The position numbers were made by a program, and so were the translations under genes. The notes under the pieces were generated by a model. It did no database searches and was not told the origin of the DNA. It was given only the letters and a program-made list of their open reading frames with translations. Of a DNA stretch of 64,000 nucleotides, positions 269 to 23,929 are shown in pieces (within the stretch, counting starts at the first letter, position 1; every line of letters starts with the position of its first letter). The DNA is from Bacteroidota bacterium (lineage in GTDB: Bacteria > Chloroflexota > Anaerolineae > Aggregatilineales > Phototrophicaceae): contig JAPUDW010000142.1 in the NCBI GenBank assembly GCA_027492915.1, forward strand, positions 1 through 64,000. Direction: 5' to 3'.

Positions 269-306
269 GCGTTGTCCGGTATTCAAGAACGTTTGCTGAT
301 GCCTCA

Positions 307-359: not shown

Positions 360-506
360 CAAAGGCAGATGTTCGCATCTAGAAAATAGGCTGGTTTCCA
401 ATTTGAACATGAATTCGGCTCGTTTCTCTCGTAAATTATGACAGAATGAATGCCGAACAAGCTTCTACAGAGTCGTGTTGGGGTTGAGATATGCGAAAAC
501 GGGTGA

Positions 507-917: not shown

Positions 918-940
918 GGGATTATCTCCAAGTCGTTCAG

Positions 941-8465: not shown

Positions 8466-8536
8466 ATGCCCCCTTTGTCGTGATGGTCAAATAGTAGGTA
8501 GTTACAAGGTAAGTGATGGGTGTGAAGTTGATATGC

Positions 8537-8561
8537 GGACGAGGCACGCCTCGTCCCTACA
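8537..8561. repeat. Palindromic repeat with CTACA tail
   Basis: GGACGAGGC and GCCTCGTCC form perfect 9-nt arms around AC, followed by CTACA. The same 9-2-9 plan with different arms occurs at 16105, 21055 and 22653. It sits in the gap before the sigma factor gene; the rest of that gap holds only the gene's upstream region. Confidence 0.65.
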
Positions 8562-8750
8562 TTGTTAACGTATTATTTGTTTGTGCAGATTTGTGCCACT
8601 TACCAGACAACCATTACCAAATAGTACATTGTACATCTGTTCTATGAACTATACTGGTTTTTAGCGCATTCGTAAAGATACCTTTGGCTCTGATGTAACA
8701 CTTGGCAGGGTATAGGGTCTTAGTAAGGGAATAGCTTTGGAGGAGCCATA

Positions 8751-9305
8751 GTGCATCGTCCGACGATGTCACCAGCCGATGAAATCCGCATTCTACAGTT
8801 GGCGCAGCGCGACCGGCTGTTATTCGCGCCGATATACGAGGTTTATTTTGACCGCGTATATGCCTACTGCTTGCGGCGTACCGGTAATGTGCAGGAGGCG
8901 GAAGACCTGTGCAGCCTTGTGTTCACACGGGCGCTGGCGGGGTTGGATGGGTATCGCGGTGGGGTGGTGGCGGCATGGTTGTTCCAGATTGCGCACAACA
9001 CGGTGGTGAAGCATTACCGTGCCAAGCGACCGTTAGCGGGGTTGGACGAGGTGGCGGCAGTTGCGGCGGAGTCCGATTTTGGCGATGTGGATGATTACGA
9101 AACGTGGCGCACGGTGGCAGGGTTGGTTTCGGCGCTGCCCGACGAGCAGCGTGAACTGCTGGCACTGACGTTGGACGCGGGTCTGAACTCGCAAGAAGTG
9201 GCGGTGATCGTGGGCAAGAGCGCGGTGGCAGTGCGGGTGCAACTTCACCGGCTGCTAAAGCAGTTACGCGCGCAGTATGAGAAGATCAGCGGGGAACCTG
9301 CCTGA
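8751..9305 (+). CDS. ECF-type RNA polymerase sigma factor
   Basis: 184 residues. Region 2 is at about 25-90 (FAPIYEVYFDRVYAYCLRRTGNVQEAEDLCSLVF in two stretches, then AWLFQIAHNTVVKHYR), and region 4 at about 130-180 (LPDEQRELLALTLDAGLNSQEVAVIVGKSAVAVRVQLHR). It lacks region 3, as expected for ECF sigma factors. The GTG start at 8751 is supported by GGAGGAG 5 bases upstream; an in-frame ATG follows at 8766. Its stop overlaps the start of the next gene by one base (TGATG), so it is probably translationally coupled to that membrane protein, a likely anti-sigma or target. Confidence 0.92.
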   Translation: MHRPTMSPADEIRILQLAQRDRLLFAPIYEVYFDRVYAYCLRRTGNVQEAEDLCSLVFTRALAGLDGYRGGVVAAWLFQIAHNTVVKHYRAKRPLAGLDEVAAVAAESDFGDVDDYETWRTVAGLVSALPDEQRELLALTLDAGLNSQEVAVIVGKSAVAVRVQLHRLLKQLRAQYEKISGEPA

Positions 9306-11203
9306 TGAATGAGCAATCTGAACTGTTGGAGCAGTTTCTACAGCGACTGCGGGACGACTCACAAGCGTTACCGCCAGATGGGCTTGACCCTGCGCTGGCG
9401 GATTTTGCGCGGCGAATGCTGCATACCCCCAAGCCGGATGCTGCTCTGCGGACGCGCATCTGGGAACAAGCTATGCAAGCACAAGCACAGCCGTACCAAA
9501 ACGGGCGTGTGCAAGAACCTGTTTATACGGATAAGGAGGATGAGTTTATGGTCATTAAACCGGAAACCACACGGCGCAATACATGGGCGTGGACGGTATT
9601 GGTCGCGGCGGCAGCTTGCGTCATCGGCGTTATTTTCATTATGCGGTTCCCAAGCCCTAACGTATTCACCAGCATCAGCTTGCAGAACGCGGCAACCCTG
9701 ACGCCCAGCGTTACCGTCACACCCAGCCCAACGATTACGCCGAGTTTGACTGTCACGCCCAGCCTGACGATTACGCCGAGTTTGACGGTTACACCCAGCG
9801 CGACGCTGATGGCTGACCCCATGATGCAATTCCCAACCTTTACGTCAACGCCGTTCGTGAACGCCTCAATGGGTGCTTATGAATATACGATTCAGGCTGG
9901 CGATACGCTTGGTTATATCATTGCCCGATTTGGTTATTCCGATTTGAGTGTTGGCTCCGGCGGCATTGTTGACCAAGTGATGAGTCTGAATAACATTCAA
10001 GATCCGAATGTGCTGCCTGCGACGGGGATGGTGCTGCTGATCCCCGTGCAGACACCAACGCCTACCGCGCCGACTGCTGATGAAGCGGTATACATGACGG
10101 CAACAGTGCTGGTTGAACAGGTGACCGCACAGGCACAAGTGATAGCTAATGTTCAGCCGATTCAAATTGTTCCCGGTCACGCCAACACGGATGATGGCCT
10201 TAGCACGGGAACGCTATCGGGTAGTAATCCGGTTATGAGTTATCAATTTACAGCCGAAACAGAAGGTGTGGTGGTGCTGACCATAGCAAGCAGCCAACTT
10301 GAACTGGTTAACCTCGAACATACTGTTATTCACGCCAGCATGTCGGGTGGTGGCGGCGGCGGGGGCAGCGTGAACCCACTGGTTATGCAAAGTATCATGA
10401 CGCATTTCCTCGTGGTGCCGGGAGACACTGTAATCGCTCATGTGCGGGTGAACACTGATTATGCGGGATACTCACCTGAACAACAGATTCCTTATGAGCT
10501 TGATATAAGACTGTTGGATGTGGTGCCGCTAAACCAAGAGCCATTTAATGCGGCGGTGGATGGAACGTTGAATGACTTTAACCCGATGGCACTCTATTCC
10601 TTCGAGGCGGCCGCCGGTGACCGTGTAACAATTAAGGCGACGGGTGTGGACGGGTTTGACTCGTCACTTAAACTCTATGATGCAACGTTCAATCCGGTGG
10701 GTGATATTTCGGTGGCGTTCGACGATAACAGCGGTGCGGGTTACGACCCTGAAATTAACCAGATAATGCTGCCGACGAACGGGCGCTATTACGTGCTGGT
10801 GACCATTGGCGGTGGTGGTTATGGTGCGTTCAAACTGGAACTGACAAAAGCTGAGATTCCATCCTTGGGTACTGGGACACAAGAGGCACGGTTCAACTCG
10901 TCGCTACAGCCACAGTTCATGTTTGAGGGCAAGGCGGGGCAAGCAACGACGGTGAATATTACCCTGCCGGAAGATGCCAGTGATTACCGTGTTGAGTTTA
11001 TCGATGTGCATGTGTACCAGAACGGGGCGTTGGTGGAGATGCTCAACCACAGCACCGTTAGCCAACCTGTAAATGGGCTGGTGCTGTCGGCGAATATCGT
11101 GCCGCCTGCCGATGGGGAAGTGGTGGTGGAGATTGCCTCGAATGGCAAACTGACTCGACCGAGCCAACAGGTGTTCCGGTTGGAGGTCGCACTGGGAGAG
11201 TAG
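9305..11203 (+). CDS. Membrane-anchored LysM protein with anti-sigma-like N-terminus
   Basis: 632 residues. Residues 1-90 are cytoplasmic and helical (LLEQFLQRLRDD, ALADFARRML), as in anti-sigma or zinc-finger-less regulators. One membrane span lies at about 94-114. An outside Thr-Pro repeat (132-165, units like SLTVTP) leads to a LysM domain at about 192-247 (YTIQAGDTLGYIIARFGYS, LNNIQDPN, LLIPVQ). The rest holds two pre-peptidase-C-like beta domains (SYQFTAETEGVVVLTI; LYSFEAAAGDRVTIKA) and a further beta domain. It is coupled to the ECF gene by a one-base overlap. I infer an envelope sensor or surface protein controlling that sigma factor; direct evidence is lacking. Confidence 0.7.
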   Translation: MNEQSELLEQFLQRLRDDSQALPPDGLDPALADFARRMLHTPKPDAALRTRIWEQAMQAQAQPYQNGRVQEPVYTDKEDEFMVIKPETTRRNTWAWTVLVAAAACVIGVIFIMRFPSPNVFTSISLQNAATLTPSVTVTPSPTITPSLTVTPSLTITPSLTVTPSATLMADPMMQFPTFTSTPFVNASMGAYEYTIQAGDTLGYIIARFGYSDLSVGSGGIVDQVMSLNNIQDPNVLPATGMVLLIPVQTPTPTAPTADEAVYMTATVLVEQVTAQAQVIANVQPIQIVPGHANTDDGLSTGTLSGSNPVMSYQFTAETEGVVVLTIASSQLELVNLEHTVIHASMSGGGGGGGSVNPLVMQSIMTHFLVVPGDTVIAHVRVNTDYAGYSPEQQIPYELDIRLLDVVPLNQEPFNAAVDGTLNDFNPMALYSFEAAAGDRVTIKATGVDGFDSSLKLYDATFNPVGDISVAFDDNSGAGYDPEINQIMLPTNGRYYVLVTIGGGGYGAFKLELTKAEIPSLGTGTQEARFNSSLQPQFMFEGKAGQATTVNITLPEDASDYRVEFIDVHVYQNGALVEMLNHSTVSQPVNGLVLSANIVPPADGEVVVEIASNGKLTRPSQQVFRLEVALGE

Positions 11204-11295
11204 GGCAGTCTTGATGCTAAATTGTTAAAAATGAAACTTTTTGAGGGTGAAAGTCGTTTAGTGAATGTGCGTTAATCATCACACAAGGATGTGTT

Positions 11296-11733
11296 ATGCC
11301 TGTTCAACTTAGACGCTTTCGCCCTTTGCCGTCGTTTGCGCTGCTGCTGGCGCTGGTCAGTTTATCGGCCTGCGGGGTTTTAGGAATTGCCCGTTCGGAT
11401 TGCAGCCGTTCGATGCTGCTGATGCTGGAACTGGAGCCGCCGGAAAGCGCGACCTTCACCGAAGAACATTGTTCGATGGGCATTGTTAACCCCACTTACA
11501 CGGCTACATTGACGATTCCAGCGATTGATCTGGTGGCATTCCAGCAAAGTACACGGATTGAAAGCTGGCTGACGACGGCAGCTTCCGCCATATCGTTGGA
11601 TGACGAAGCTGATGGGCTATCATCCTTATTATTCGGTAGATTCAGTGACGGTTCGATCAGCGAAGAAGTATTGATTGATACGAGCAATCCGCAGCAGTAT
11701 ACCGTGTATGTGGTGCGCTCATTTATTGACTAG
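11296..11733 (+). CDS. Putative lipoprotein
   Basis: 145 residues. A basic start, a hydrophobic core (FALLLALVSL) and the lipobox LSAC put the lipidated cysteine near residue 26. The mature part has two further cysteines (SDC near residue 36 and EEHC) that could pair. No known domain is recognised. It follows the sigma/LysM pair by about 90 bases on the same strand and may belong to the same envelope unit, although an independent promoter is possible. It converges with the beta-repeat gene, 3 bases away. Confidence 0.7.
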   Translation: MPVQLRRFRPLPSFALLLALVSLSACGVLGIARSDCSRSMLLMLELEPPESATFTEEHCSMGIVNPTYTATLTIPAIDLVAFQQSTRIESWLTTAASAISLDDEADGLSSLLFGRFSDGSISEEVLIDTSNPQQYTVYVVRSFID

Positions 11734-11736
11734 GCG

Positions 11737-12126
11737 CTACCAGATGTTTCCCGCGCCGGGGGTGTAGGTTTTACCCATCACTGCATCGGCGATGATGGTG
11801 TCGCATTGGACAACACCGTTAACCTTAACCATGCCGCTGTTGATGACCACATCACTGCTATTAATGACTATTCTCGATGCATCCAGTTGGACGCTGGTGG
11901 CAGCTTGAATATGCACACCCGTGGCATCGAGGGTGATGATGTTGCCGTTGGTATCCTGAATAACGATGGTGTTTTCGTTAAGGGCGATTTGCTGTCCGGC
12001 GTGGTTTTGCAGATGGAGGCTGGCAGCATCCTGCATGGTGCGGATGCCGAGCGGTGTTAATTGGTCAGCGATATTACCACCGCGAAAAAGGTTGAATAGG
12101 CTGGTCAGAAAACTGCTCATCATCAC
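11737..12126 (-). CDS. Small protein with VgrG/gp5-like beta-repeats
   Basis: 129 residues. After a helical start (SSFLTSLFNLFRGG), the rest is a run of short alternating beta-strands: LHLQNHAGQQIALNENTIVI, then TNGNIITLDATGVHIQAA, SVQLDASRIVINSSDVVIN, MVKVNGVVQCDTIIADAVMG. This pattern resembles the C-terminal triangular beta-helix of VgrG/gp5 and related baseplate proteins. No other injection-system or phage gene is present. The function is unknown; it could be an orphan structural protein or a cargo tip. Confidence 0.55.
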   Translation of the reverse strand: MMMSSFLTSLFNLFRGGNIADQLTPLGIRTMQDAASLHLQNHAGQQIALNENTIVIQDTNGNIITLDATGVHIQAATSVQLDASRIVINSSDVVINSGMVKVNGVVQCDTIIADAVMGKTYTPGAGNIW

Positions 12127-12149
12127 CTCACCGGATTATAGGCCGATAC

Positions 12150-12635
12150 CTAACTGTACTTCTTTTGCAGCATGGGCAGCAAACCACCTGCGTCCATAAT
12201 CGCTTGGACGGAGGGCGAGAGGCGTGGGAAAGTGAAGGTTTTCCCTGCCGCCATAATGCTGGCGTTGACAAGATCAATCTCGATGCTGTCACCGGTTTTG
12301 ACGACCGCGTTCAGGCCGGGGCAGACGATGGGTAATACGCCCTGATTAATACAGTTGCGGAAGTACAAGCCGCTGAACGAGGCAGCGATGATGAGGTTCA
12401 CACCAGAATACTTGATGCTGGTCACGCCTTGTTCGCGGCTGCTGCCCATCCCCCAATTCGAACCTGCCACAATCACATCACCGGCTTGTGCGCCGCTGGC
12501 GAAGGCTGGGTCGAGATCTTCGAGGGCGTGGGCGGCGATGTCCTCCGGCGTTTTGAGGGTGTAAGTGTATTTACCGGGGAAAATGACATCGGTATTGACG
12601 TTATCGCCATATACCCAGCAGCGGTGTGTGGACAT
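12150..12635 (-). CDS. leuD: 3-isopropylmalate/homoaconitate dehydratase small subunit
   Basis: 161 residues from the ATG at 12635 (GGAAA upstream). WVYGDNVNTDVIFPGKYTYT at the start and VIVAGSNWGMGSSREQ near the middle are the signature of the swivelling small subunit of the aconitase superfamily, which completes the active site of the large Fe-S subunit. The protein is the short, archaeal/LeuD2-like size. Choice between isopropylmalate (leucine) and homocitrate or methylmalate-type substrates cannot be made safely from the loop residues. The matching large subunit lies 3.5 kb upstream at 16156-17460, not adjacent as usual. Confidence 0.88.
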   Translation of the reverse strand: MSTHRCWVYGDNVNTDVIFPGKYTYTLKTPEDIAAHALEDLDPAFASGAQAGDVIVAGSNWGMGSSREQGVTSIKYSGVNLIIAASFSGLYFRNCINQGVLPIVCPGLNAVVKTGDSIEIDLVNASIMAAGKTFTFPRLSPSVQAIMDAGGLLPMLQKKYS

Positions 12636-13022
12636 GGGTTGGTTTCCTTGCGTTGATGGTGCTGATACGTGTGTATTATGCCGCAAAGGTCATGAGGCGG
12701 CTAGAGATGTCTCAGCGAGAAGTAGAGAGGCTGTGGTGCATGGAGGTTGCTGTCGCCTGCTGGAAACTGGCGTCGTCGTATAAGAAGCGCATGGTTTTTT
12801 TGTGGTTTTCCGGTGGGGTGTTATCACGGAGGGCAGCTGTAATACGATCATCATCGGTGAGGCGCCAGCAACAAAAGCGGCTGTTGTTCAGCCGACAAAA
12901 ATGCCGCCTGTATTTAGTCCGGTTGCGAGTGTGGGGTTGTGGCACCGTTTGGGGCAGGTGGAAAGCTTGTCGAGATTAGGGTATTGTGCAGTGTCAGGCA
13001 GGGCAGATCAATTGTGCCCTGC
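12636..13022. other. Gap between leuD and the histidine kinase
   Basis: No convincing gene. A hairpin with 8-bp arms, GCAGGGCA at 12998-13005 and TGCCCTGC at 13015-13022, sits directly against the stop codon of the kinase gene and could act as its 3' end, although no run of T follows on that strand. An open frame on the minus strand (12712-12945) is Arg/His-rich and lacks a ribosome site. Confidence 0.4.
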
Positions 13023-14345
13023 TTAAACGGCGACAAGGGGCGGGACTTCGAATTTTGTTTCCGTAGCGGGTAGGCTGAACCAGAAGGTGCTGCCGGTACC
13101 GGGGAAACTTTCGACACCCACCTGTCCGCCCATGCGGCTGACCATGCGGTGAACGATGGACAAGCCCAGGCCCAGCCCTTCGGCTTTGACGCTGTGCAAG
13201 CGGGTGAACATTTCAAAGAGGTGGAGTTGGTCTTCTTTGCTGATGCCAACGCCGGTATCTATTACTTCGTAGCGGATGCAGGTTCCCTGTTGGAAGCCGC
13301 GTATGGTGATGCGCGGATCAGACTTGCCGACGCCCATGTATTTGATAGCGTTACTGATGAGGTTCGCGAAGATTTCTTCCAGCCATTGGCTATGCCCCAT
13401 CACGGATGGTAGGTCGTCACCGATCACCACCTCAATGTGGTTGGCATCGAGTTGGAGTTGGAAGCGGTTCACGGCAGCATCAATTGGCAGTTTGGCATCG
13501 ACTACCGTCACACTGTCTTTGTCATTACGCGACTTCGCCAGCCACAGCAGTTGTTCTATCATATCCGCCATTTTGAAAGACGCGGCTTTGATATTGCCCA
13601 AATACTGATGGGCTTTGGGTGGTAAGGCATCTTTCGAGATACGCTGCACCATATCGACGTTCAGGCCGATGCTGGTTAGGGGTGATTTAAGGTCGTGGGC
13701 GATGGTGTGGTTATAAGCATCTAATTCTTGATTGCTGGCTAACAACTCGGCATTATACAATTCCATCGCGATCTGGATTTCATTGAGCTGGCGGACATGC
13801 TCGGCATTATTGATGGCGCTTGCCAACTGAAGCGCCAGCATATAGCCGATGCGCAGATCATCCTGTGAGTAGGCTTTGGCTTCGGTAGTGGCAAAATTAA
13901 TCGCGCCAGTCACCATGCCATGATCCAGCAGCGGAACAATAATTTGGGACGCAAAATGGGCTAAGAACATGGTGGGTTCGGCCTGCTGAATGAGGCGGGA
14001 ATGCCCACTTTTTAAGACGGAACCGAGGTTGGCAGTCGCCGCTAAATCAACACTGTTCATGGTATACGGTTTGCCAAATAAGGTGACAATGTGCCAATCG
14101 CCGTTGGGCTGGCGCAAACAGGCACTGAAGTGTTCATAATCCAGCAACCACTTTGCTTGACGGGCGACGACTTGGAGTATTTCATCCAAGTCAAAGGTGC
14201 GGTTAATCGCGACCCCTATTTCGTTAAGGGCTGCAATCCGACTCGATAACGCCTGAGTTTCTGCGAGTAGGTGGCGCGTCGTGGCTAATAATTCCTCGTG
14301 ATCAAGCTGGTCAAGTTTCCGTGCGCTTAAGGGCGCAGTGGTCAT
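13023..14345 (-). CDS. Soluble GAF-domain sensor histidine kinase
   Basis: 440 residues with no membrane span. A GAF-like sensor (about 45-190; FDLDEILQVVARQAKWLLDY, MVTGAINFATTEAKAYS) precedes a HisKA domain with the phospho-acceptor at H217 in HTIAHDLKSPLTSIG, and a HATPase domain (IFANLISNAIKYM, RYEVIDTGVGIS, EGLGLGLSIVHRMVSRMGG). It therefore should autophosphorylate on H217 in response to a cytoplasmic ligand or light-like signal. Its start overlaps the stop of the upstream decarboxylase-like gene by 4 bases (ATGA), implying coupling. No response regulator is adjacent; the nearest is at 25117. Confidence 0.92.
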   Translation of the reverse strand: MTTAPLSARKLDQLDHEELLATTRHLLAETQALSSRIAALNEIGVAINRTFDLDEILQVVARQAKWLLDYEHFSACLRQPNGDWHIVTLFGKPYTMNSVDLAATANLGSVLKSGHSRLIQQAEPTMFLAHFASQIIVPLLDHGMVTGAINFATTEAKAYSQDDLRIGYMLALQLASAINNAEHVRQLNEIQIAMELYNAELLASNQELDAYNHTIAHDLKSPLTSIGLNVDMVQRISKDALPPKAHQYLGNIKAASFKMADMIEQLLWLAKSRNDKDSVTVVDAKLPIDAAVNRFQLQLDANHIEVVIGDDLPSVMGHSQWLEEIFANLISNAIKYMGVGKSDPRITIRGFQQGTCIRYEVIDTGVGISKEDQLHLFEMFTRLHSVKAEGLGLGLSIVHRMVSRMGGQVGVESFPGTGSTFWFSLPATETKFEVPPLVAV

Positions 14346-14884
14346 AAAGCATCGATCTCCAATTGGATAGCGTCGGTGTATTGGTTGACTTCGGTAAACA
14401 GGTTTGCGGTGGCGACAATTTCATAAATTTCGGTTTCGTCGAGGCCGAGTTTGGTCAATTCCTGATAGTGTTCAGGTGTGATGCTCTTGGGATTGGTTGC
14501 CGCCAGCAGCCCAAACTTAATGACCGCTTTTTCGCGGACAGGTAGGGGGCAAGCGTCGAAGTCTGAAACGAGTGTTTGCAACACATCTTCGCTCATACCG
14601 AGTGCGGATAGGCCGTGCAAATGCACCTGTAAAGCATACTGGCTGTTGTTGGCTTGCGAGATGGCGACACCGATCATTTCTTTGAGGGTGCGCGGAATAC
14701 TGCCTTTGAGCATGGTCGAGCGGAACTTCTTCCAATTGGCTTCAAGAATATCGGGGTTAATAGCCATCGACTTGAAAAGGTTAGGGACGATGCCAAAACC
14801 CAATTCGGCAGTAATCTCATCAAAAACAGCTTTGGTTTTGGGTTCGGTCACGGTAGCAGGGTCAAAAATGGTGACGAGGGACAT
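14342..14884 (-). CDS. Carboxymuconolactone decarboxylase/AhpD-like protein
   Basis: 180 residues from the ATG at 14884. Helical sequence with IPRTLKEMIGVAISQANNSQYALQVH, the position where AhpD-type proteins carry EXXCxxC-H; here the two cysteines are absent (ISQANNSQYA). PLPVREKAVIKFGLLAATNP and GLDETEIYEIVATANLFTEVNQYTDAI complete the fold. Without the redox cysteines, peroxidase activity is unlikely, so this is probably a cysteine-free member of unknown role. It is coupled by a 4-base overlap to the histidine kinase downstream. Confidence 0.8.
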   Translation of the reverse strand: MSLVTIFDPATVTEPKTKAVFDEITAELGFGIVPNLFKSMAINPDILEANWKKFRSTMLKGSIPRTLKEMIGVAISQANNSQYALQVHLHGLSALGMSEDVLQTLVSDFDACPLPVREKAVIKFGLLAATNPKSITPEHYQELTKLGLDETEIYEIVATANLFTEVNQYTDAIQLEIDAL

Positions 14885-15077
14885 CAAAACTCCAATCTGT
14901 AATATTCTGTAATTAAATATTAACACCATTATTTCAATGCATAGGCTGAAGAATTTGTGAAAAATTACTGCAAACAGTATTTTCGTAACAATTCAGTATA
15001 AGTACGTAGTATCGCGGCAATCGGATTTTATTGTGAGTATAATGGGGATGTCGGTTTGCGGCTAAAGGGAAGATTAT

Positions 15078-15500
15078 ATGCCGTTTGATGTGAGTTGGTA
15101 TGATGATGCCCATACCATACTGCGAGTTCGAGTACATGGAAAGCCAACATGGGATGAGTATGATACCGCGATGGATATTGTATCTCAGCGTATCGCCGCT
15201 GTGCCACATCGCGTTGATATGGTATTGGACGACGAGGTGGGGATGCCACGCGGTAACCCGATGCCCCATTTGAAAGCCGCCCTCGACAAAGTTGCTGCGC
15301 ACCCCAATTTAGGGATGAGCATGGCAGCCAGTGCGAATAATGTTGCGCTGTTCCCTTCACTGATGATGGAAACAGCCGGACGCTTGTATGGTGTCGATAT
15401 GAAACGCTATGGGCGCTTCGTCAAATCGATGGATGAGGCGGTCGCTATTATTATGGCCGACCGTGCCAAGGAACAAGGGAAGCCGGCTCAATCGGATTAA
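15078..15500 (+). CDS. Conserved hypothetical protein, STAS/SpoIIAA-like fold possible
   Basis: 140 residues, starting MPFDVSWYDDAHTILRVRVHGKPTWDEYD, with LDDEVGMPRGNPMPHLKAALDKVAAHPN in the middle and YGVDMKRYGRFVKSMDEAVAIIM at the end. The alternating strand-helix order resembles SpoIIAA/STAS-like proteins, but no clear signature residue is present, so I make no functional claim. There is no membrane segment. The gene is alone on its strand and converges with the DinB gene, its stop only 3 bases from that gene's stop. Confidence 0.6.
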   Translation: MPFDVSWYDDAHTILRVRVHGKPTWDEYDTAMDIVSQRIAAVPHRVDMVLDDEVGMPRGNPMPHLKAALDKVAAHPNLGMSMAASANNVALFPSLMMETAGRLYGVDMKRYGRFVKSMDEAVAIIMADRAKEQGKPAQSD

Positions 15501-15503
15501 AGG

Positions 15504-16022
15504 TTAGCTGCTGATTTTCGGCAGGTGGTCGGTATAGTTGACACTAAATGGCCCGCTGCCTTTAATGAAGGGCTGCATGATCGCACGTTCGGCCTGCACC
15601 AGATGGTTAAGGTCGTGGGCGGCGATATGGTGCAGCAGTTGGCTCATGGTTACCCAGCCGTACTCCGCATGAAGTCCCTGTTTTTCTAAATCTGTCTCAG
15701 TCAATTGATTGATTAGCGCGAGGGTTTGCTGGCGCAGCTCGTTAAATTCGCCTGCCAGCACGACGGTTGGCGCGGCTCTGGGTGGACGGTCGGCGGGGTT
15801 GAAGGCGGGGAAGGGCTGACCCGCTAAGATCGCCTTGATGCGTACCGGAAAGGACACGGCTTCGACATCAGTTACGTGCTGGAGGCATTCGAGCGCTGAC
15901 CACTCATTCGGGGCAGGACGGGCGGTGAGCAGTTCGAGCGGAACTGACTGCACAAGGTTGAACCAGCGGGTGGGGCTGATGGCGGCTACGGATTTACACC
16001 ATAATAAAATGTTGTCGGTCAT
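15504..16022 (-). CDS. DinB-family protein
   Basis: 172 residues in the four-helix DinB/YfiT fold: SALECLQHVTDVEAVSFPVRIKAILAG contains the first metal-ligand histidine, and QLLHHIAAHDLNHLVQAERA supplies the C-terminal HxxxH pair (HDLNH). These proteins bind a divalent metal and often act as small-thiol-dependent transferases, but the substrate is unknown here. The ATG at 16022 follows AAGGAAACAAA. It is intact, in contrast to the second DinB gene at 52955-53436. Confidence 0.85.
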   Translation of the reverse strand: MTDNILLWCKSVAAISPTRWFNLVQSVPLELLTARPAPNEWSALECLQHVTDVEAVSFPVRIKAILAGQPFPAFNPADRPPRAAPTVVLAGEFNELRQQTLALINQLTETDLEKQGLHAEYGWVTMSQLLHHIAAHDLNHLVQAERAIMQPFIKGSGPFSVNYTDHLPKISS

Positions 16023-16104
16023 TTTGTTTCCTTGTTTGTAAACTCAAGTATAAAACTCAGATCTGTGCTCTGGTGGTGAGCGTGCTTTTTGCAGCCGACG
16101 CAGC

Positions 16105-16129
16105 GGAGGAGACATGGCTCCTCCCTACA
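16105..16129. repeat. Palindromic repeat with CTACA tail
   Basis: Arms GGAGGAGAC and GGCTCCTCC around AT, followed by CTACA; one mismatch in the arms. Same 9-2-9 plan as the copies at 8537, 21055 and 22653. Confidence 0.55.
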
Positions 16130-16155
16130 ATTAAAGCATTGTCTGTGGGCGTTAT

Positions 16156-17460
16156 TTAGGCGAACGTTTGCGGGTCGGCGATGGCTCCGGCAAGGGCGCT
16201 GGCAGCGACCACATAGGCGTTGCTTAGATAGATGGTCGAGTCGTTGGTGCCCATGCGGCCTTTAAAGTTACGGCTGCCGGTCATGATGGTGGCTTCGTTG
16301 GGCGCGGGAACCCCTTGGTGATTCCCCATGCACGGGCCGCAGCCGGGGGTGCTGATGGTGACACCGGCTTCGAGCAGGGTGGCAAGCGTACCGTCGGTGG
16401 TCGCGTCTAAGAGTACCTGCGAACTGGCGGGAATGACCACAAAGCGGCAGGCGACCTGCTTACCCCGCACGACTTCGGCAGCAGCTTGCATATCGGACAG
16501 GCGCCCGCCGGTACACGTCCCGATCAATGCCTGCTGGATGGGTGTGCCAACCGCTTGACCGAGGTCAACCACATTGTCGGGCAGGTGGGGCAGGGCGATT
16601 TGGGGTTGCAGATCGCTTACATCGAGCGTGTACACCTCATCATAAACCGCGTCATCGTCGGGGTAGAGGGGTGCATAATGGCGGTAGCGATAGGGGTTGC
16701 TTTCGTTGGCAGACGTACCGCGATGGTTAGCCGGTTTGCGGCGTTCTTCGATGTAGGCGAGTACGCGCTCATCGGGGGCGATATAGGCGGACATGGCGCC
16801 GAACTCCGCCATCATATTAGGCATGACGGGCAGCTCGTCAATCGACCAGTAGCCAACCGTGTCACCGCTGATTTCCACCGAGCGATATTGACCCCCGCCG
16901 ACGGTTTTATCTTTCATCAAGCGCAGGGTGATGTCTTTGGCGGTAACACCGGGGCGCGGTTTGCCCGTTAACACGACTTTGAGCGTTTCTGGCACGCGCA
17001 GCCACAGTTCACCGGTTGCCCAGATAGCGGCGATTTCGGTGCGACCCAAGCCCATGCCGAACGCGCCGAGCCAGCCGTAGTGGGGGGTGTGGCTATCCGA
17101 CCCCATGATGACCTCGCCGGGGAGGATGACGGCTTCTTCGCTAAGGACTTGATGACAGATGCCGCGCCCGACCTCGAAGAAATGCCCGACCCCCTGCGCC
17201 TTGACCCACTCGCGGATTTCTGCGTGGTTCTGGGCGTGTTCGGTGGTGGGGGCAGGGACAGCGTGATCGAGCGTGATCGCCATGCGTTCGGGATGCAGGA
17301 CTTTGGGTGCGCCGATTTTCTCGAAGATTTTACGGATGGGCGCGGTGTTGTCGTGGCTAAGGTAAATATCCGGCTTTACGTCGAGGATGTCGCCAGCACG
17401 GGCGGAGGAAACGCCAGCGGCACGGGCGAGGGCTTTTTCGGCAAAGGTGTATCCGGTCAT
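16156..17460 (-). CDS. leuC: 3-isopropylmalate/homoaconitate dehydratase large subunit
   Basis: 434 residues, the length of the archaeal-type large subunit of the aconitase superfamily. MGSDSHTPHYGWLGAFGMGLGRTEIA, IGTCTGGRLSDM and TPGCGPCMGNHQGVP carry the three Fe-S cluster cysteines; TGSRNFKGRMG is the usual substrate-binding segment. It should dehydrate and rehydrate a 2- or 3-substituted malate through a [4Fe-4S] cluster together with the small subunit at 12150-12635. Leucine synthesis (LeuC) is the default assignment, but homoaconitase or citramalate-type substrates remain possible. xisI lies 23 bases upstream in the same direction. Confidence 0.9.
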   Translation of the reverse strand: MTGYTFAEKALARAAGVSSARAGDILDVKPDIYLSHDNTAPIRKIFEKIGAPKVLHPERMAITLDHAVPAPTTEHAQNHAEIREWVKAQGVGHFFEVGRGICHQVLSEEAVILPGEVIMGSDSHTPHYGWLGAFGMGLGRTEIAAIWATGELWLRVPETLKVVLTGKPRPGVTAKDITLRLMKDKTVGGGQYRSVEISGDTVGYWSIDELPVMPNMMAEFGAMSAYIAPDERVLAYIEERRKPANHRGTSANESNPYRYRHYAPLYPDDDAVYDEVYTLDVSDLQPQIALPHLPDNVVDLGQAVGTPIQQALIGTCTGGRLSDMQAAAEVVRGKQVACRFVVIPASSQVLLDATTDGTLATLLEAGVTISTPGCGPCMGNHQGVPAPNEATIMTGSRNFKGRMGTNDSTIYLSNAYVVAASALAGAIADPQTFA

Positions 17461-17483
17461 GGGTGGGTTGATTTCCTATGGGT

Positions 17484-17783
17484 TTACGATGCGGCTTCGG
17501 GAACAGCTTCCCCTGCATAAGCCAATATAATGTCTTTTCGGTCAATACCTGCTTGTACCAATGCATCCACAGCAGGTTTGTTGTTTAGGTCGCGTTCGAT
17601 CACAATTTGTTCGCCAAGTATACGTACCACAAGGCTGACATCCATATCGTGCGGTTTATTCTCAATATCGACAACAGTCAGCAGGCTACCATCGGGATTT
17701 TGGGTCAAATAGCTGATGCAGTTTAATCCATCTTTGGCATATTCAGAAACGACTTGATGTACGGTTTGTTTTAGGGTCGCCAT
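17484..17783 (-). CDS. xisI: XisI-family protein
   Basis: 99 residues: VHQVVSEYAKDGLNCISYL, then LLTVVDIEN and the closing QAGIDRKDIILAYAGEAVPEA, the characteristic XisI layout. XisI with XisH is required for excision of the fdxN element in Anabaena, together with the recombinase XisF; the biochemical role of XisI is not known. It overlaps the end of xisH by 13 bases, as usual for the pair. No recombinase gene is in the window, so an excision role here is unsupported. Confidence 0.9.
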   Translation of the reverse strand: MATLKQTVHQVVSEYAKDGLNCISYLTQNPDGSLLTVVDIENKPHDMDVSLVVRILGEQIVIERDLNNKPAVDALVQAGIDRKDIILAYAGEAVPEAAS

Positions 17784-18175
17784 TCGGTGATTACCTCACT
17801 TTCAGGGTCAAAAACGATGAGTGATATGCTGAAGCGATCAATCATCAATTGCCCAATTTCTTCAGCAAGAATACCTCTAAAGGTAATGGTTGATACAGCC
17901 ATATAAAGAGGGATGTGAATATTTTTGTTCTCTAGAGCCACTCTATACATAAGATACTGTCCCACAGAGTTTGCCAAGTCGTCAACCTGTGAAGCGGACA
18001 CCATTTCCTTTACTTCTACAAGAATGAGTGTTCTTTCAGTTCTGTGTTCTGCTTCAAGATCAATCCATAATCTGCGGTCACCAATTTTGAGCTTCACTTG
18101 TTCATCGGTAATAAGCCATTGATTTTTGACCAAAGCATTTTTCAAGCGGTCATGGTAACGATCTTTAGCAGGCAA
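17771..18175 (-). CDS. xisH: XisH-family protein, nuclease-like
   Basis: 134 residues: MPAKDRYHDRLKNALVKNQWLITDEQ, then RLWIDLEAE and TLILVEVKEMVS. The D-x(n)-E-V-K arrangement in the second and third strands is the catalytic core of PD-(D/E)XK nucleases, the fold proposed for XisH. The remainder, including YLMYRVALENKNIHIPLYMAVS, matches the family. It is the first gene of a short xisH-xisI unit that continues toward leuC. Families of this pair are common in cyanobacteria and Chloroflexota without any excision element. Confidence 0.9.
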   Translation of the reverse strand: MPAKDRYHDRLKNALVKNQWLITDEQVKLKIGDRRLWIDLEAEHRTERTLILVEVKEMVSASQVDDLANSVGQYLMYRVALENKNIHIPLYMAVSTITFRGILAEEIGQLMIDRFSISLIVFDPESEVITEWRP

Positions 18176-18979
18176 TTTCCATTTCCAAATGCTAGACTAT
18201 TTTTGAGGTTAAATATTCGAGAAGTTTGCTTAATGCTACCCTATTCGATGCGAGAGGGCGATAGACGTGTGGTATTGGCGGCCACGTTTTGGACGTAAAA
18301 GTTCGAAATGTTGCAAATATTGATAAAGTTGCCCTAAAGGACTCCTTCGTCGCAATTGTTACAACGATTTTTGATCGGCGGGATTACGGGAGCGAACCGC
18401 TGAAACTGCGAAAACCGCAAATGCAAAAGTGGGTTTTGGCGGCGAGATTAAGGGAGTAAAGCGCCAAAGATTCGCTAAATTCTTCAAATTCTCCCTAAAG
18501 GACACTTCGTAGTCATTTTCACTGTGCATTTTATTTTGTTGTTGCAGTTGAGAATCCATGTTTTGTCGTCAGAACCTGACCCCTAACCCCTCTCCAATTT
18601 GCTGAGTACAGCTTGGAGGGGGAACAAAACATTTGGCAAATTTGGCGGCAATTTCGGCAATGGCAAAAGGCGATTTTGTGCCGGATTTGCCAACCATACC
18701 ATTCATGGTTTTGCAGCAAAATCATGAATGGGCTGCCGCTGCAACGTTTGCTGCAAAAATAGTCCTCAGTTTACAGTCAACAGTTGACAGTTCAATGCAT
18801 AACAAGCGTCAACTACAGCAAATGCGGCGCGAACACCCCTATCCCCAAAGCTTGCCTTGTTACTACGGGGCAAGGGAGCAATGCAGACCTGCTGAGAGAA
18901 ACGCTCTATAGCTAATCTTTATTACAAGTCAATTTTAGAACATTTGTGTTACGGTGTCAAGCGCGTTAAGTTAGGGTTT
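18176..18979. other. 800-bp noncoding stretch with strong inverted repeats
   Basis: No gene is visible. Upstream of xisH lie two similar tracts containing CCCTAAAGGAC and CTTCGT (near 18330 and 18495). A hairpin pairs 18587-18597 with 18613-18622 (CCCCTCTCCAA and TTGGAGGGGG). The strongest element is a 33-base inverted repeat at 18699-18731 (see separate entry). Base composition changes along the stretch and stop codons occur in all frames. Confidence 0.5.
18699..18731. repeat. 33-base near-perfect inverted repeat
   Basis: Arms CCATTCATG-G-TTTTGC and GCAAAA-T-CATGAATGG face each other across a single A. All 16 positions pair in RNA, with one G-U. It lies in the gap between xisH and the TPR gene at 18980. 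It is not followed by a T run, so it is not an ordinary terminator. Its function is unknown. Confidence 0.65.
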
Positions 18980-19993
18980 TCAAACTTTAGTGTCAGCGTT
19001 TGTGATTATTCTGGTTTGAATGCCGGCTGCCAGTTGAAGCAGATTTTCAGGCCAGTTGAGGGTATCGTGCAGCCAGGTAAGGTTGGCGTATTTGGGATTG
19101 AGCGCGGTGGCCTGCTGCCATGCGGCTTGGGCTTCGGCAGGGCGGTCGAGCGCTTGATAGACGAGGGCTTTTAGGGCGTGGAGATTAGGCGCTGCTGCTT
19201 TTTCATAGGCTTGCATGTCCGGTTCGAAACGAATGCTCATGAAATCCGATAATGCGCCTTCATAATTACCCATGACGAGTTGGGCATACCCCCTGCGGAT
19301 TTGCAGTGCTAATTTGACGGTGGGGTGATCTTCGTGAACGGCTAACCCTGCATTGCATTCGGCAATGGCTTCTTGAGGATCATTTCGAGAGAGGTAGAGG
19401 TCGGCTTTGTAATCATGAATGGCACCGGCGCTGTAGTTGATTGAAAAGGGTTTGGGCTGCGGTAATGCGGCTTTGACTCTCGCGATTTCCAACGCGCGAT
19501 CGTAATCCGCAAAGGCTTTATCCCTATTTTTTTGGATGTGGTAGAGAATCCCGCGCTGCAAGTAGCCATAACCGAAATCTCGGTTGAAGCGGATCATGAA
19601 GGTATACAGGTTTTCGGCAGCTTTATGATTACCGGATTTGACGAGAATCGGGCCAAGATATAACAATACAAAGACCCACAAAACAAGCAAGAGCAAGGGC
19701 CAAAAAATAACCAAGAATAATGCAGAAGATAGATCAAGCCGTAAAAACTTGACTACGAGGATTATAAGTGCGGTAATTATTATCCCTAGAATAATAAGAA
19801 AAAGATAACGCATAACGAAGTCTTTGATGCGTTTGGGTAGAAAGCTAAATATTGGGATAAATAACGGAATAGCAAGGAATGACAAAGCAGGAAACAGGTT
19901 TGGATTTTGTGTGTCAGAGGCCACAATCAATACAATTCCCAACACAATTAAACCTAATATGAGCCACTTTGTTCGCGGAGACATTTCACCCAT
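18980..19993 (-). CDS. Membrane-anchored tetratricopeptide repeat protein
   Basis: 337 residues from the ATG at 19993 (MGEMSPRTK). The first 125 residues hold several hydrophobic spans (WLILGLIVLGIVLIVAS; YLFLIILGIIITALIILVV; LLLLVLWVFVLLYLGPIL), then TPR units follow, such as RGILYHIQKNRDKAFADYDRALEIA and HALKALVYQALDRPAEAQAAWQQA. TPR domains mediate protein contacts; partners are not known. The last 55 residues are almost identical to those of the next gene upstream, so the two arose by tandem duplication. A TATAAT at 20027-20032 and AAAGGA at about 20003 precede the start. Confidence 0.82.
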   Translation of the reverse strand: MGEMSPRTKWLILGLIVLGIVLIVASDTQNPNLFPALSFLAIPLFIPIFSFLPKRIKDFVMRYLFLIILGIIITALIILVVKFLRLDLSSALFLVIFWPLLLLVLWVFVLLYLGPILVKSGNHKAAENLYTFMIRFNRDFGYGYLQRGILYHIQKNRDKAFADYDRALEIARVKAALPQPKPFSINYSAGAIHDYKADLYLSRNDPQEAIAECNAGLAVHEDHPTVKLALQIRRGYAQLVMGNYEGALSDFMSIRFEPDMQAYEKAAAPNLHALKALVYQALDRPAEAQAAWQQATALNPKYANLTWLHDTLNWPENLLQLAAGIQTRIITNADTKV

Positions 19994-20000
19994 GCGGCAG

Positions 20001-20034
20001 CATCCTTTGTGCGTGGTTACAAAGTTATTATAGG
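20001..20034 (-). promoter_or_regulatory. Conserved promoter-leader block, copy 1
   Basis: Thirty of 34 bases match the block at 20942-20975 in front of the paralogous TPR gene. Read on the minus strand it has TATAAT (20027-20032), a short leader with GTAACCAC and AAAGGATG next to the start. The duplication of the gene therefore included its promoter. No good -35 element is visible. Confidence 0.5.
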
Positions 20035-20089
20035 GGTGAAAAGTGTCGGCAGGCATAAACGATGAGGGCGCACAGCCGTGGAATAGGGA

Positions 20090-20935
20090 TTATTGAATGC
20101 CGGCTGCCAGTTGAAGCAGATTTTCAGGCCAGTTGAGGTTGTTGCGCAGCCAAGCAGGGTTGGCGTATTTGGGATTGAGCGCGGTGGCTTGCTGCCATGA
20201 CTCGCGGGCTTCGGCAGGGCGGTCGAGCGCTTGATAGACGAGGGCTTTTAGGGCGTGGAGATCGGTTTCGACCTGTGCCTCGTTTGGTTCGAGTTCACTG
20301 TCGAAGTACAGCGAATCGAGATTGTTTAGTGCATCTTCGTAGCTGCCGCTGATGACCTGTGCATAGGCTCGACGGTATTCCCAATAGAGCGTTTGGGACT
20401 GAGCCGCTTCGTTTCGTTTCAGCGCGGCGTCAAATTCTGTAACTGCCTGCTGCGGCTTATCCTGAACCAGATAAAGCTCGGCTTTACTGACATGAATAAA
20501 GGCAATACTGTAATTAACTGACCACAATGGCGGCTTTGCTAGCTGCGCTTTTTGGGCGGTAATCTCCAGCGCCTTATCATAATCTACGAGTGCGTTTGCA
20601 ATATCACCACGTTTTTGCCTGACAACAGCGCGCTGCAAGTAGGCAAATCCAAATTGGGGGGCGAACCGGAGCATGAGGGAATAGTAGTTTTCGGCAGCTT
20701 TATCCAGCCCAAATGAGACCAGCAGCGGCCCCAGTACAAATACGAGCAGGGGACGGTAGAAAATTATCACCAACCCTGAAAGACATGCAACTAAGATCAG
20801 CACGTTATATTGGCCGCGTAAGAAACCGTCCACTAAAGCCATAGGCAGTATTAAAAGGGCTGCAAGCATCACGAGCAGCGATATTTGCCCGATGGCGTAT
20901 CCGGTTGATTTTGGTCGCGGCGATATTGCACCCAT
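20090..20935 (-). CDS. Membrane-anchored tetratricopeptide repeat protein, paralogue
   Basis: 281 residues from the ATG at 20935 (MGAISPRPKS), chosen by alignment to the start of the paralogue at 18980-19993; an ATG three codons earlier overlaps the ribosome site. Two or three hydrophobic spans at the N-terminus (ISLLVMLAALLILPMALV; NVLILVACLSGLVIIFY; LLVFVLGPLLVSFG) precede TPR units including RAVVRQKRGDIANALVDYDKALEI. The C-terminal segment HALKALVYQALDRPAEA is identical to the paralogue. It lacks roughly 50 residues in the membrane region relative to it. Confidence 0.82.
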   Translation of the reverse strand: MGAISPRPKSTGYAIGQISLLVMLAALLILPMALVDGFLRGQYNVLILVACLSGLVIIFYRPLLVFVLGPLLVSFGLDKAAENYYSLMLRFAPQFGFAYLQRAVVRQKRGDIANALVDYDKALEITAQKAQLAKPPLWSVNYSIAFIHVSKAELYLVQDKPQQAVTEFDAALKRNEAAQSQTLYWEYRRAYAQVISGSYEDALNNLDSLYFDSELEPNEAQVETDLHALKALVYQALDRPAEARESWQQATALNPKYANPAWLRNNLNWPENLLQLAAGIQ

Positions 20936-20941
20936 TGGCGA

Positions 20942-20975
20942 CATCCTTTGTAGGTGGTTACAAGGTGATTATAGG
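20942..20975 (-). promoter_or_regulatory. Conserved promoter-leader block, copy 2
   Basis: The counterpart of the block at 20001-20034, with TATAAT on the minus strand at 20968-20973 and AAAGGAT close to the TPR gene start. Four of 34 bases differ between the two copies, two of them adjacent. Confidence 0.5.
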
Positions 20976-21054
20976 CGAGAAAGGGAGATGCGGGACGCCC
21001 ATAAAACGGGTGTTTTTGTGGCGGGTGAGGGTAAAAGGTCGGCGGAAGGATGTG

Positions 21055-21079
21055 GGGCGCACGACCGTGCGCCCGTACA
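21055..21079. repeat. Palindromic repeat with GTACA tail
   Basis: Perfect arms GGGCGCACG and CGTGCGCCC around AC, followed by GTACA. This is the same 9-2-9 plan as at 8537 and 22653 with a different arm sequence. A related hairpin (GGCGCAC, AGC, GTGCGCC, then TCTACAAA) follows at 21186-21209. Between them, 21103-21151 holds two more small stems (GTCGC/GCGAC and CCTCCC/GGGAGG). The whole gap 20976-21231 is a repeat cluster with no gene. Confidence 0.6.
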
Positions 21080-21185
21080 GGCGTGGGGGTAAGGGTGAAT
21101 GGTGACCCCCTCCGTCGCTGACGCGACACCTCCCCCGCAAGCGAGGGAGGGAACATACAAAACCATTTGGGCATAGGTTATGCAG

Positions 21186-21209
21186 GGCGCACAGCGTGCG
21201 CCTCTACAA
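21186..21209. repeat. Hairpin repeat with CTACAAA tail
   Basis: GGCGCAC and GTGCGCC pair around AGC, followed by TCTACAAA. It shares the loop AGC with the copies at 245 and 22723 and the tail with the 9-2-9 family. Confidence 0.5.
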
Positions 21210-21231
21210 AGTAATTCTATCGCGTGAGAGG

Positions 21232-22605
21232 TTATGGCAGGTCTTGTTGGATGAGGCCGTAAAGCATTTCGGCGGCGAGGCGGTTGGCTTCGATGCTGGG
21301 GTGCGAGTCGAAGCGGTTCACCAAGAGGCTAAGGGTGGGTTTGCCTTCAAGGACGGTGCTGATGTCGGCGATTTGCACATTGGGCTTATCGGCGAAGAAG
21401 TCGCGCACACGCTGGAGCGCAGGCTGCGATTCCTTGATGGCAGCGAGCTGCGGCCAGAGCAGGACGATCAGCTTGGCATCGTGGTCAACCGTCCACTGGT
21501 AGAAGTTTTGTAGGTTGCCCTGATGTTCGTTCCACACGGTGTCATCTAAGTGGGAACGGATGAGGATGTCGGTGAAGTTGGTGTTCTTTTGCGGCGAGGT
21601 GAACTGGGCAATGTTGTAATAGGCGTAGTTGGGAGCGAAGAAATTCAGCACAAACCAGCCGAGCGGGGTGTTCAGATCTTGAAACTGGAACACACTGTTG
21701 GGGTTGGTTTCGGGATTGCGGAACAGGATGTAATCGACATCGTTCATGTAATAGGACAGCACGACAATTTTCGGCACACGCGGCGGCTTGAGGTTGTCGT
21801 AGTAGGCACCGAGGTAGGCGGTTTCCACGTTGGTGTCCCAGCCGGATTGGGCGACGGTATTGACATCGAAGTTATCACCAAGCATCCGTTCTAGCACCTG
21901 CGGGTAGGTGTCGTCAATGTTGCTGATGCCATGACCGGCGGTGAAGGAGTCGCCGACGATGGCGATGGTGGTCAGGTCGGGGGAGTCGGACTTGGGTTCG
22001 TGGTCACGGTAGCCGAGCGAGTTCTTGAAGGGATAGTAAAAGTTTTCGTACCACCAGTAGTTCATGGCGGTGAAGCCGTAGCCATCGGTGGTGATGTAGA
22101 AAATGCGCAGGTAAGCCTCCGCGCCCCAGAACAGGAGCAATATGGTGGTGAGGGTGACGAGCACACCCGTCCATTTGCTACTGCCGAGACGTGCGCCCAT
22201 TGCGCGGACGCTGGCGGTGTCGGCATCATAGCCAATGAGGAAGATGAACAACCAGCCGAGGCTGAACAGGTAGCAAAATTCGGGATTACTCAGGCCGCGC
22301 CCGTTGGTGGGTTGGGCTTTATAGACCCACCAGCCAATGGCTACAGTGAGGAACACGAGCATGAGGAACCAATAGGTTACCGGATGGGCGCGCAGCCAGC
22401 GAACAGGGGTGCGGAGCAGGGCAGGGCGAGTGGATGTGAACACCGTGAGCAGGGTTACGCCGATGATGATGATTACGGCAGGCATGATCCACAGCGTAGA
22501 TGAGAGGCCGTTGTCGCCGCTGACGGTGGGGGCGGAGGCGATACCGGTGATGACCGCACCGATAGCGAGTAGTATCCAGATGATTTTGAGAAAGCGTGAG
22601 TTCAT
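21232..22605 (-). CDS. Membrane protein with SGNH/GDSL hydrolase domain
   Basis: 457 residues. Five or so hydrophobic spans occupy the first 170 residues (IIWILLAIGAVITGIAS; PAVIIIIGVTLLTVF; WFLMLVFLTVAIGWWVY; VLVTLTTILLLFWGAEAYL). The soluble domain begins with the SGNH block I motif IAIVGDSFTAGHGI, includes VLSYYMNDVDY (the N block), and ends with NRFDSHPSIEANRLAAE, supplying the Asp-His of block V. SGNH enzymes with this membrane arrangement usually hydrolyse or transfer acyl groups on surface glycans. The substrate is not known. It stands alone between repeat-rich gaps. Confidence 0.82.
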   Translation of the reverse strand: MNSRFLKIIWILLAIGAVITGIASAPTVSGDNGLSSTLWIMPAVIIIIGVTLLTVFTSTRPALLRTPVRWLRAHPVTYWFLMLVFLTVAIGWWVYKAQPTNGRGLSNPEFCYLFSLGWLFIFLIGYDADTASVRAMGARLGSSKWTGVLVTLTTILLLFWGAEAYLRIFYITTDGYGFTAMNYWWYENFYYPFKNSLGYRDHEPKSDSPDLTTIAIVGDSFTAGHGISNIDDTYPQVLERMLGDNFDVNTVAQSGWDTNVETAYLGAYYDNLKPPRVPKIVVLSYYMNDVDYILFRNPETNPNSVFQFQDLNTPLGWFVLNFFAPNYAYYNIAQFTSPQKNTNFTDILIRSHLDDTVWNEHQGNLQNFYQWTVDHDAKLIVLLWPQLAAIKESQPALQRVRDFFADKPNVQIADISTVLEGKPTLSLLVNRFDSHPSIEANRLAAEMLYGLIQQDLP

Positions 22606-22652
22606 AAGCGTTTAAGCGGTTTCTATTAGTTCGAGTAGTCGAGAAATAGTAC

Positions 22653-22677
22653 GGACGTAGCACGCTACGTCCCTACA
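22653..22677. repeat. Palindromic repeat with CTACA tail
   Basis: Perfect arms GGACGTAGC and GCTACGTCC around AC, followed by CTACA. Compared with the copy at 8537, two arm positions differ and both are compensated in the other arm. Confidence 0.65.
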
Positions 22678-22722
22678 ATATTCACCACGCGCTATTATAA
22701 ATCATTCTGCGTGATGTGAGAG

Positions 22723-22747
22723 TTTGCCAGCGGCAAACCCCTACAAA
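22723..22747. repeat. Short hairpin repeat ending in CCCCTACAAA
   Basis: TTTGCC and GGCAAA pair around AGC, followed by CCCCTACAAA; second copy of the unit at 245-268. Confidence 0.6.
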
Positions 22748-22773: not shown

Positions 22774-23625
22774 TTAAAGATTGTCCTTCACACAGCGGAA
22801 GCCGATGAACCAATCGCGGGTTTCTTGGTTGGCCTTGAAACGCACGGTCATGCCTGCACCGAAGTCGATGTAGTTATGCACACCGCCACGGTAGACACGT
22901 TCGACGGTGATATCCGCCAAATCCTCGCGGCCATCGGTGGCAACATACGGGTAACGGGCGTAGGCGCTGCTGACCCATTCCCAGACGTTACCGGACATAT
23001 CGAGCGCACCGACCCACGATGCGCCGTCGGGCTTACTGCCGACTTCGGCGGTCTGGTTGTTGTTGTTCTGGTCGAACACCAAGAAGTCACCCACGAGATC
23101 GTTTCCCCACGGGTACATCAGGTTATCCGGCCCGCGCCCCGCGTATTCCCATTCGGCCTCGGTGGGTAGGTGACCGCCACGGCTGACGCAGAAATCACGC
23201 GCTTCTGACCAGAGCAGGTTGCCACGCGGTTGGTTATCACCGGGGAAAGCACCTTCGGAGCCGTACTGTTTGTTGGTGACTTCGGTTTTGTCGATCCAGT
23301 AGGGGGCAGTGAAGCAGACTTCGGAGGCGGGACGTTCGTCGCGGCGGCCTTCGTCGCTGCCCATCATGAAGCAGCCTGCGGGAACCTGCACCATGACCAC
23401 GCCATCCACCGTTTGCTCAACAGGTGTCCAATCCGCATTTTGGGTGACAGGCATGGCGGTTGGCGGTGGTGGGGTTGCGGTCGGTGCGGCAGGGGCAGCA
23501 TCACACGCGGCGAGGAGGGTTAGGGCGGTGAGGAGGAGAATGGAGGGTAAATGGCGGACAGCATGTACGGCCTGTCCATAGCTAAATACGCATTTGTTTG
23601 CGCCGCATGAGGCTAAAGCCGTCAT
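22774..23625 (-). CDS. Formylglycine-generating-enzyme-like (SUMF1) lipoprotein
   Basis: The SUMF1/FGE-sulfatase domain fills the C-terminal 210 residues: VPAGCFMMGSDEGRRDERPA, APYWIDKTEVTNKQYG, HLPTEAEWEYAGRG, NVWEWVSSAYARYP and the closing WFIGFRC. The oxygen-dependent FGE uses a Cys pair near the C-terminus; only the final FRC is visible, so catalysis as a sulfatase activator is doubtful and a binding or kinase-associated role is equally likely. The lipobox TLLAAC shows it is a lipoprotein. The start is uncertain: the frame is open to 23835, and the best ATG (23625) lies inside a repeat hairpin. Confidence 0.75.
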   Translation of the reverse strand: MTALASCGANKCVFSYGQAVHAVRHLPSILLLTALTLLAACDAAPAAPTATPPPPTAMPVTQNADWTPVEQTVDGVVMVQVPAGCFMMGSDEGRRDERPASEVCFTAPYWIDKTEVTNKQYGSEGAFPGDNQPRGNLLWSEARDFCVSRGGHLPTEAEWEYAGRGPDNLMYPWGNDLVGDFLVFDQNNNNQTAEVGSKPDGASWVGALDMSGNVWEWVSSAYARYPYVATDGREDLADITVERVYRGGVHNYIDFGAGMTVRFKANQETRDWFIGFRCVKDNL

Positions 23626-23659
23626 GCTAGACAGAGGGACAAGTCCACTAAAGGGACTT
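23606..23659. repeat. Twin TAAA-loop hairpin repeat, copy 2
   Basis: Hairpin one at 23606-23626 is identical in stem and loop to 307-327. Hairpin two at 23641-23659 has arms AAGTCC/GGACTT with the loop TAAA. The putative start codon of the FGE-like gene lies inside the first hairpin. Confidence 0.6.
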
Positions 23660-23929
23660 CGAAAATGCGGTTGCCAATCACGCCCGTGAATATTCGTGTT
23701 CTCCGAAGCGAGCACACGGGAAAGCAAGTGTGAACCAATTCGGGACAAGTCTTGTATTCTGCCCCCACTCATCATTGAAACTAGCATCCGGCGTAAGTTT
23801 GAACTTGTAACTTGAGACTTCATAGACACTTGCAACTTGATAATCGTGACTAAAGACCAATGATTATAGGTTTGTGGCTGTTATAATACCGCACGTTGCA
23901 CCCGTTGAATATAAGGAAACCACGCGCTT

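Follow-up and report, generated by a model that had tools for sequence, protein, structure and literature searches.

The window, a 64,000-nucleotide stretch that is part of contig C142 of a 6.86 Mb assembly (G000; 445 contigs, 87.7% complete), carries seven short hairpins, each of which was confirmed where the initial annotation had placed it. That annotation had described four of them as sharing a plan of two 9-nt arms, a 2-nt centre and a (C/G)TACA tail, and the other three as related. Since the tail is a GTAG head (once GTAC) when the other strand is read, the hairpins show the defining arrangement of GTAG-type REP elements. They are accordingly listed as REPs, together with a composite element that encloses one of them.

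242 to 267, minus strand: REP, GTAG head with arms GGGCTTGCC/GGCAAATCC and one G.T pair, family II (found by genome-wide pattern search and sequence reading).
8509 to 8603, no strand assigned: composite element of about 95 bp with inverted boundaries, GTAAGTGAT and (A/G)(T/C)CACTTAC, and a REP at its centre.
8537 to 8560, minus strand: REP, GTAG head with GGACGAGGC-GT-GCCTCGTCC, 9-2-9, family I.
16105 to 16128, minus strand: REP, GTAG head with GGAGGAGCC-AT-GTCTCCTCC, one mismatch, family I.
21055 to 21078, minus strand: REP with GTAC replacing GTAG, followed by GGGCGCACGGTCGTGCGCCC, family IV.
21186 to 21207, minus strand: REP, GTAG-A followed by GGCGCACGCTGTGCGCC, family IV-like.
22653 to 22676, minus strand: REP, GTAG head with GGACGTAGC-GT-GCTACGTCC, 9-2-9, family I.
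22720 to 22744, minus strand: REP, GTAG head with GGGTTTGCC-GCT-GGCAAACTC, family II.

The hairpins at 8537 and 22653 are both perfect, and the two arm positions at which they differ are both compensated, as had been reported. The common 9-2-9 plan stands as regards the places of the four copies, whereas at 16105 a single mismatch leaves 8 of 9 pairs and 21055 ends in GTACA, not CTACA. Read on the minus strand, TGTAG is followed directly by the hairpin, so that a GTAG (GTRG) head lies immediately 5' of the palindrome; the exceptions are 21055, with its GTAC, and 21186, with an extra base after GTAG. Stems are mostly 8–9 bp and loops 2–4 nt, within the stem length of roughly 6–9 bp and the short loop of REPs. 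The 22720 REP lies 44 bp from that at 22653 in identical orientation. A hairpin at 57818 (10-bp stem, 8-nt loop, within a predicted gene) was omitted as probably unrelated. Other repeats are also present in the window. One of about 200 bp (264–462) adjoins the 242–267 REP; upon comparison of window positions 1–2000 with the window's own genome 44 matches were obtained, all except the self-match within 264–462, and the core of this repeat (307–363) reappears at 23596–23666. A 50-bp repeat at 21104–21153, CCCCCTCCGTCGC...CTCCCCCGCAAGCGAGGGAGGG, is found at many places in the genus, mostly at 93–100% identity.

A genome-wide search for the palindromes, as the initial annotation had proposed, gave copies in excess of chance. 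The 9-2-9 pattern GTAGGGACG-N10-CGTCC matched 85 times in the window's genome against 0 in the reversed control, and TGTAGGG-N17-CC 123 times against 36 for the reversed pattern. The former matched 288 times in G015, a genome of the same genus. In the window itself a strict scan returned 4 CTACA-tailed hairpins compared with 0 or 1 per Markov shuffle (3 in total over ten shuffles). Over 1.06 Mb of the own genome a hairpin followed GTAG in 21.6 per 1000 cases, roughly fivefold the rate of most other tetramers (2.5–5 per 1000); TAGG, which overlaps GTAG, stood before a hairpin in 18.7 per 1000 cases. The sample behind the statistics comprised roughly 1.3 Mb from G000 and 0.68 Mb from G015, with some contigs picked for having pattern matches; on this base the numerous REPs were mostly intergenic, 10 of 106 lying within predicted genes. 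The arms sort into several types.

Family I, 9-2-9 arm types: GGACGAGGC, GGAGGAGGC, GGATGAGGC, GGACGCAGC, GGACGTAGC, GGACGCGAT.
Family II arm types: GGRTTTGCC, GGGCTTGCC.
Family III arm types: GGAATGGTC and relatives.
Family IV arm type: GGGCGCAC.

In some copies the palindrome extends through the head, giving GTAG...CTAC. REPs also occur in close pairs 22–132 bp apart in the own genome, mostly of different families and in 13 of 16 cases in the same orientation, as at 22653/22720 in the window and at 7342/7395/7500 of L147.

Covariation of the arms, which the initial annotation had suggested as a check, was then evident: the arms change together. Among 23 distinct 9-2-9 sequences of family I, 97.6% of cells pair, two-sided changes occur at 6 of the 9 pairs and the remaining 3 pairs are invariant. 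The covariation score was 0.518 compared with 0.190 upon shuffling, with 0 of 500 shuffles as high and a lower score in every slid control. These sequences had been selected on the outer four pairs, and changes at the inner five pairs thus form the independent part of this result. When copies were chosen by the outer 4–5 pairs alone and the inner pairs scored afterwards, 75–87% of inner pairs were Watson-Crick compared with 25% expected by chance. The proposal of a folded form that is kept as opposed to decay is therefore upheld in one respect, in that a dispersed family retains its fold despite arm changes. Ten other copies of the 95-bp element around the 8537 REP, mostly 72–86% identical, were aligned from the same genome, and two-sided changes were observed in the REP stem within this backbone as well (11 copies). 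The element is possibly a new detail.

REPs of this layout are associated with RAYT transposase genes. A scan of contigs returned 532 RAYT relatives, the best 80 of which span many phyla. In an alignment of RAYTs of this type H77, H79, Q133, Y153 and N157 are invariant and W132 and P158 nearly so, and the NHxH, WQ and YIxNNP motifs of RAYT group 4 (TnpA_REP subclass 2.4) are present. The density of GTAG hairpins was 1.6 per kb up to 400 bp from these genes and 0.14 per kb farther away. The open reading frame itself contains a GTAG hairpin in 66 of 99 RAYT genes, in almost every case between HUH and Tyr, which is where the in-frame REPs of this group are located; the counts of matches were 120 for GTAG, 9 for GATG and 2 for CTAC. 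Internal and flanking hairpins of one locus shared the same 8-nt arm in 27 of 38 loci compared with 4% between loci. The exact 24-mer of the 8537 REP lies inside the RAYT gene of another member of the Anaerolineae (L270), a region without a match among plasmid records, and GTAGGGACGAGGCACGCCTCGTCC is located 418 bp from a RAYT of the same genus. In G015 (L198, positions 8791–10655, G015:C14) a tandem array of alternating inverted REPs encloses a RAYT gene.

The association is thus seen in relatives, and in the window's own genome only with a broken RAYT. This copy, on contig C48, has an internal TAG and REPs within and adjoining it, and scores 74 bits against NCBIfam REP_Tyr_transpos (cut-off 80); its orthologue in G015 is intact. 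A second match to the RAYT profile exists in the own genome. Y1 and RAYT profiles revealed no intact gene of this RAYT type in the own assembly, which is 87.7% complete. Other candidate movers were rejected. The IS200-type transposase gene L009 (G000:C358:4120-7000) showed no GTAGGG hairpin in the 2.9 kb around it, and its flanking repeat differs; on both flanks lie GCATGATGGCTTTAGCCTCATGC-type repeats, similar to the core of the window 264–462 repeat. L010, with a weak Y1_Tnp match in a long open frame, was set aside.

Judged from sequence, the window palindromes are very probably GTAG-type REPs served by RAYT group 4 (TnpA_REP subclass 2.4), with a spread that depends on pairing and arms that are compensated; the group was assigned by motifs and in-frame REPs. 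The basis of this is observed, namely the layout, copy number, covariation, presence or absence between species and the hairpins around and inside RAYT genes. What the palindromes do had been considered unknown; their kind is known, as they have the GTAG-type REP layout and the same hairpins accompany the transposase genes of relatives.

The same sites were compared in G015, which is syntenic with the window at roughly 74–86% identity in longer matches. The orthologous context was read for 26 G000 REP elements (29 detections, three being the second strand of symmetric copies). From the alignments 10 were read as shared, 15 as absent and 1 as ambiguous, and one REP present in G000 is absent from a clean site in G015. 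At the 22653 site the sister species has GGATGAGGC-GT-GCCTCATCC, and all three arm differences are compensated. A count by eye over four shared sites (22653, C59:10428, C48:10123 and L160:1537) gave 8 pairs with two-sided changes that preserve pairing and 3 with a change on one side only. Among the remaining shared copies some are the same or almost the same in both species, and others have decayed or are split in the loop by a REPIN. The 22720 REP is decayed in the sister species, and in G015 a REPIN is inserted in the loop of an older REP (L197/L318, G015:C3) where the G000 site (L149:6278) is an intact REP. The earlier statement that these are not decaying repeats consequently fails for several orthologous copies that are decayed or interrupted in one species, besides the 15 that are absent.

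At the shared sites, replacement of a REP by another family member would look no different from compensatory mutation. This explanation of the arm differences between species is compatible with the REP/RAYT reading and is a real possibility, although not the expected one. The arm types at 22653 recur elsewhere in the own sample (GGACGTAGC twice, GGATGAGGC six times); in the G015 sample, the arm type that G015 has at the L160 site (GGACGAGAT) occurs five times. At 22653, however, the alignment of the flanks between species continues to the very edge of the hairpin, and one-sided changes are seen as well at the other three changed sites. In-place arm changes between species are possibly a new detail.

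The orientation of the REPs was related to base composition. Of 91 scorable own-genome REPs, 67 had GTAG on the strand that is locally C-rich (67:24, p = 7e-6), as had 51 of 71 with neighbours collapsed (p = 3e-4). G015 leaned the same way (41:27) but not significantly on its own (p = 0.11), and along a 180-kb stretch of G015 the REP strand largely switches with the sign of the third-position skew. Two genes found as leading-strand markers were in disagreement. No report of such a bias was found in the open literature searched, which is not proof of absence, and the bias is possibly a new detail. It is conceivable, if rather doubtful, that REPs are inserted with a fixed polarity to the local G/C asymmetry and that copies keep switching arm type in place, through selection on the standing hairpin or RAYT-driven exchange.

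Compensated arms could also arise by quasipalindrome correction, a mutational process in which template switching inside the hairpin rewrites one arm from the other, so that no selection on pairing is required. Perfect palindromes are common, and arm copying could yield the GTAG...CTAC copies in which the palindrome runs through the head. In most copies, nevertheless, the GTAG head stays asymmetric and the loop unpaired. Double-foot REPs have been described, and a deletion within an inverted dimer is another way to produce them (PMC6006769). Nor would arm copying alone lead one to expect the same arms both within a RAYT gene and on its flanks. As the full explanation it is therefore improbable; such repair may contribute as a mutational route to compensated arms.

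A role of the hairpins at the RNA level, where they would terminate transcription or stabilise mRNA and pairing would be selected for, is slightly less probable again. Such a role has been proposed for REPs in general (PMC3733652), and the REPs are found mostly downstream of genes: 64 of 86 have an upstream gene on the same strand, a preference for 3' ends, and 6 of 86 lie between divergent genes. The 8537 REP, however, is flanked on either side by the 5' end of a divergent gene, Rfam gave no match in the window, and the GTAG head and the RAYT association would be left unexplained. The reading of the window copies as intrinsic terminators was rejected, as no T run stands behind the hairpins and 8537 is upstream of two divergent genes.

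The REP/RAYT reading agrees with described systems. The palindromes belong to a known kind, described in 2018 for RAYT group 4 / TnpA_REP subclass 2.4. Genes of that subclass contain in-frame REPs, and double-foot REPs occur (PMC6006769, Quentin et al. 2018). Shared with it are the NHxH, WQ and YIxNNP-type motifs, the variable HUH-Tyr insert that contains in-frame REPs, stems that begin with G-C pairs and double-foot REPs, whereas here the own-genome RAYT is broken and family I stems start with GGA in place of three G-C pairs. GTAG REPs with complementary stem changes and several families per genome have been reported, including a record from Chloroflexi (PMC3733652, Di Nocera et al. 2013). 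That superfamily, with its 24 published consensus families, is matched in its GTAG head at the foot of the stem, 6–9 bp stem, short loop, complementary-change sub-families, dimers, intergenic location near gene 3' ends and multiple families, the likeness being one of layout. A distinguishing trait of the present REPs is the prominence of tandem pairs that share an orientation but belong to different families. Complementary REP changes were taken as suggesting selection (PMC2817692, Nunvar et al. 2010) and REP class was found to change at orthologous RAYT loci (PMC3686654, Nunvar et al. 2013). The REPs of Stenotrophomonas likewise have a perfect palindrome directly after the head and arm variants that keep pairing. 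The Stenotrophomonas/Pseudomonas classes with cognate RAYTs resemble the present ones further in REPs that outlive a lost RAYT and in class change at orthologous loci, but here arm changes also occur at a solitary non-RAYT site (22653). Cleavage of perfect-palindrome REPs is lowered or almost lost when the stem contains a mismatch, and is less affected by base swaps (PMC8266576); the RAYTs for which binding and cleavage have been published belong to groups 2 and 3, not to group 4.

By this mechanism the transposase would recognise the single-stranded GTAG head plus the folded hairpin, and recognition would need a paired stem yet be lenient on which bases pair. Pairing would be selected at the recognition or spreading step, and the RAYT would presumably move REP copies into mostly intergenic sites. 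Lenient recognition would lead surviving and new copies to differ by compensated arm changes, with several families coexisting. As the sole RAYT of this type found in the own genome is broken, most REP copies there may be relics of past activity.

A formerly unexplained family of palindromes is hereby tied to a transposase group that has its own REP inside the gene, and this location allows cognate REP/RAYT pairs to be read directly from sequence. If the polarity and the in-place changes hold, the genus could be used to test how REPs get into a chromosome during its replication, and whether existing copies are kept up or exchanged for others.
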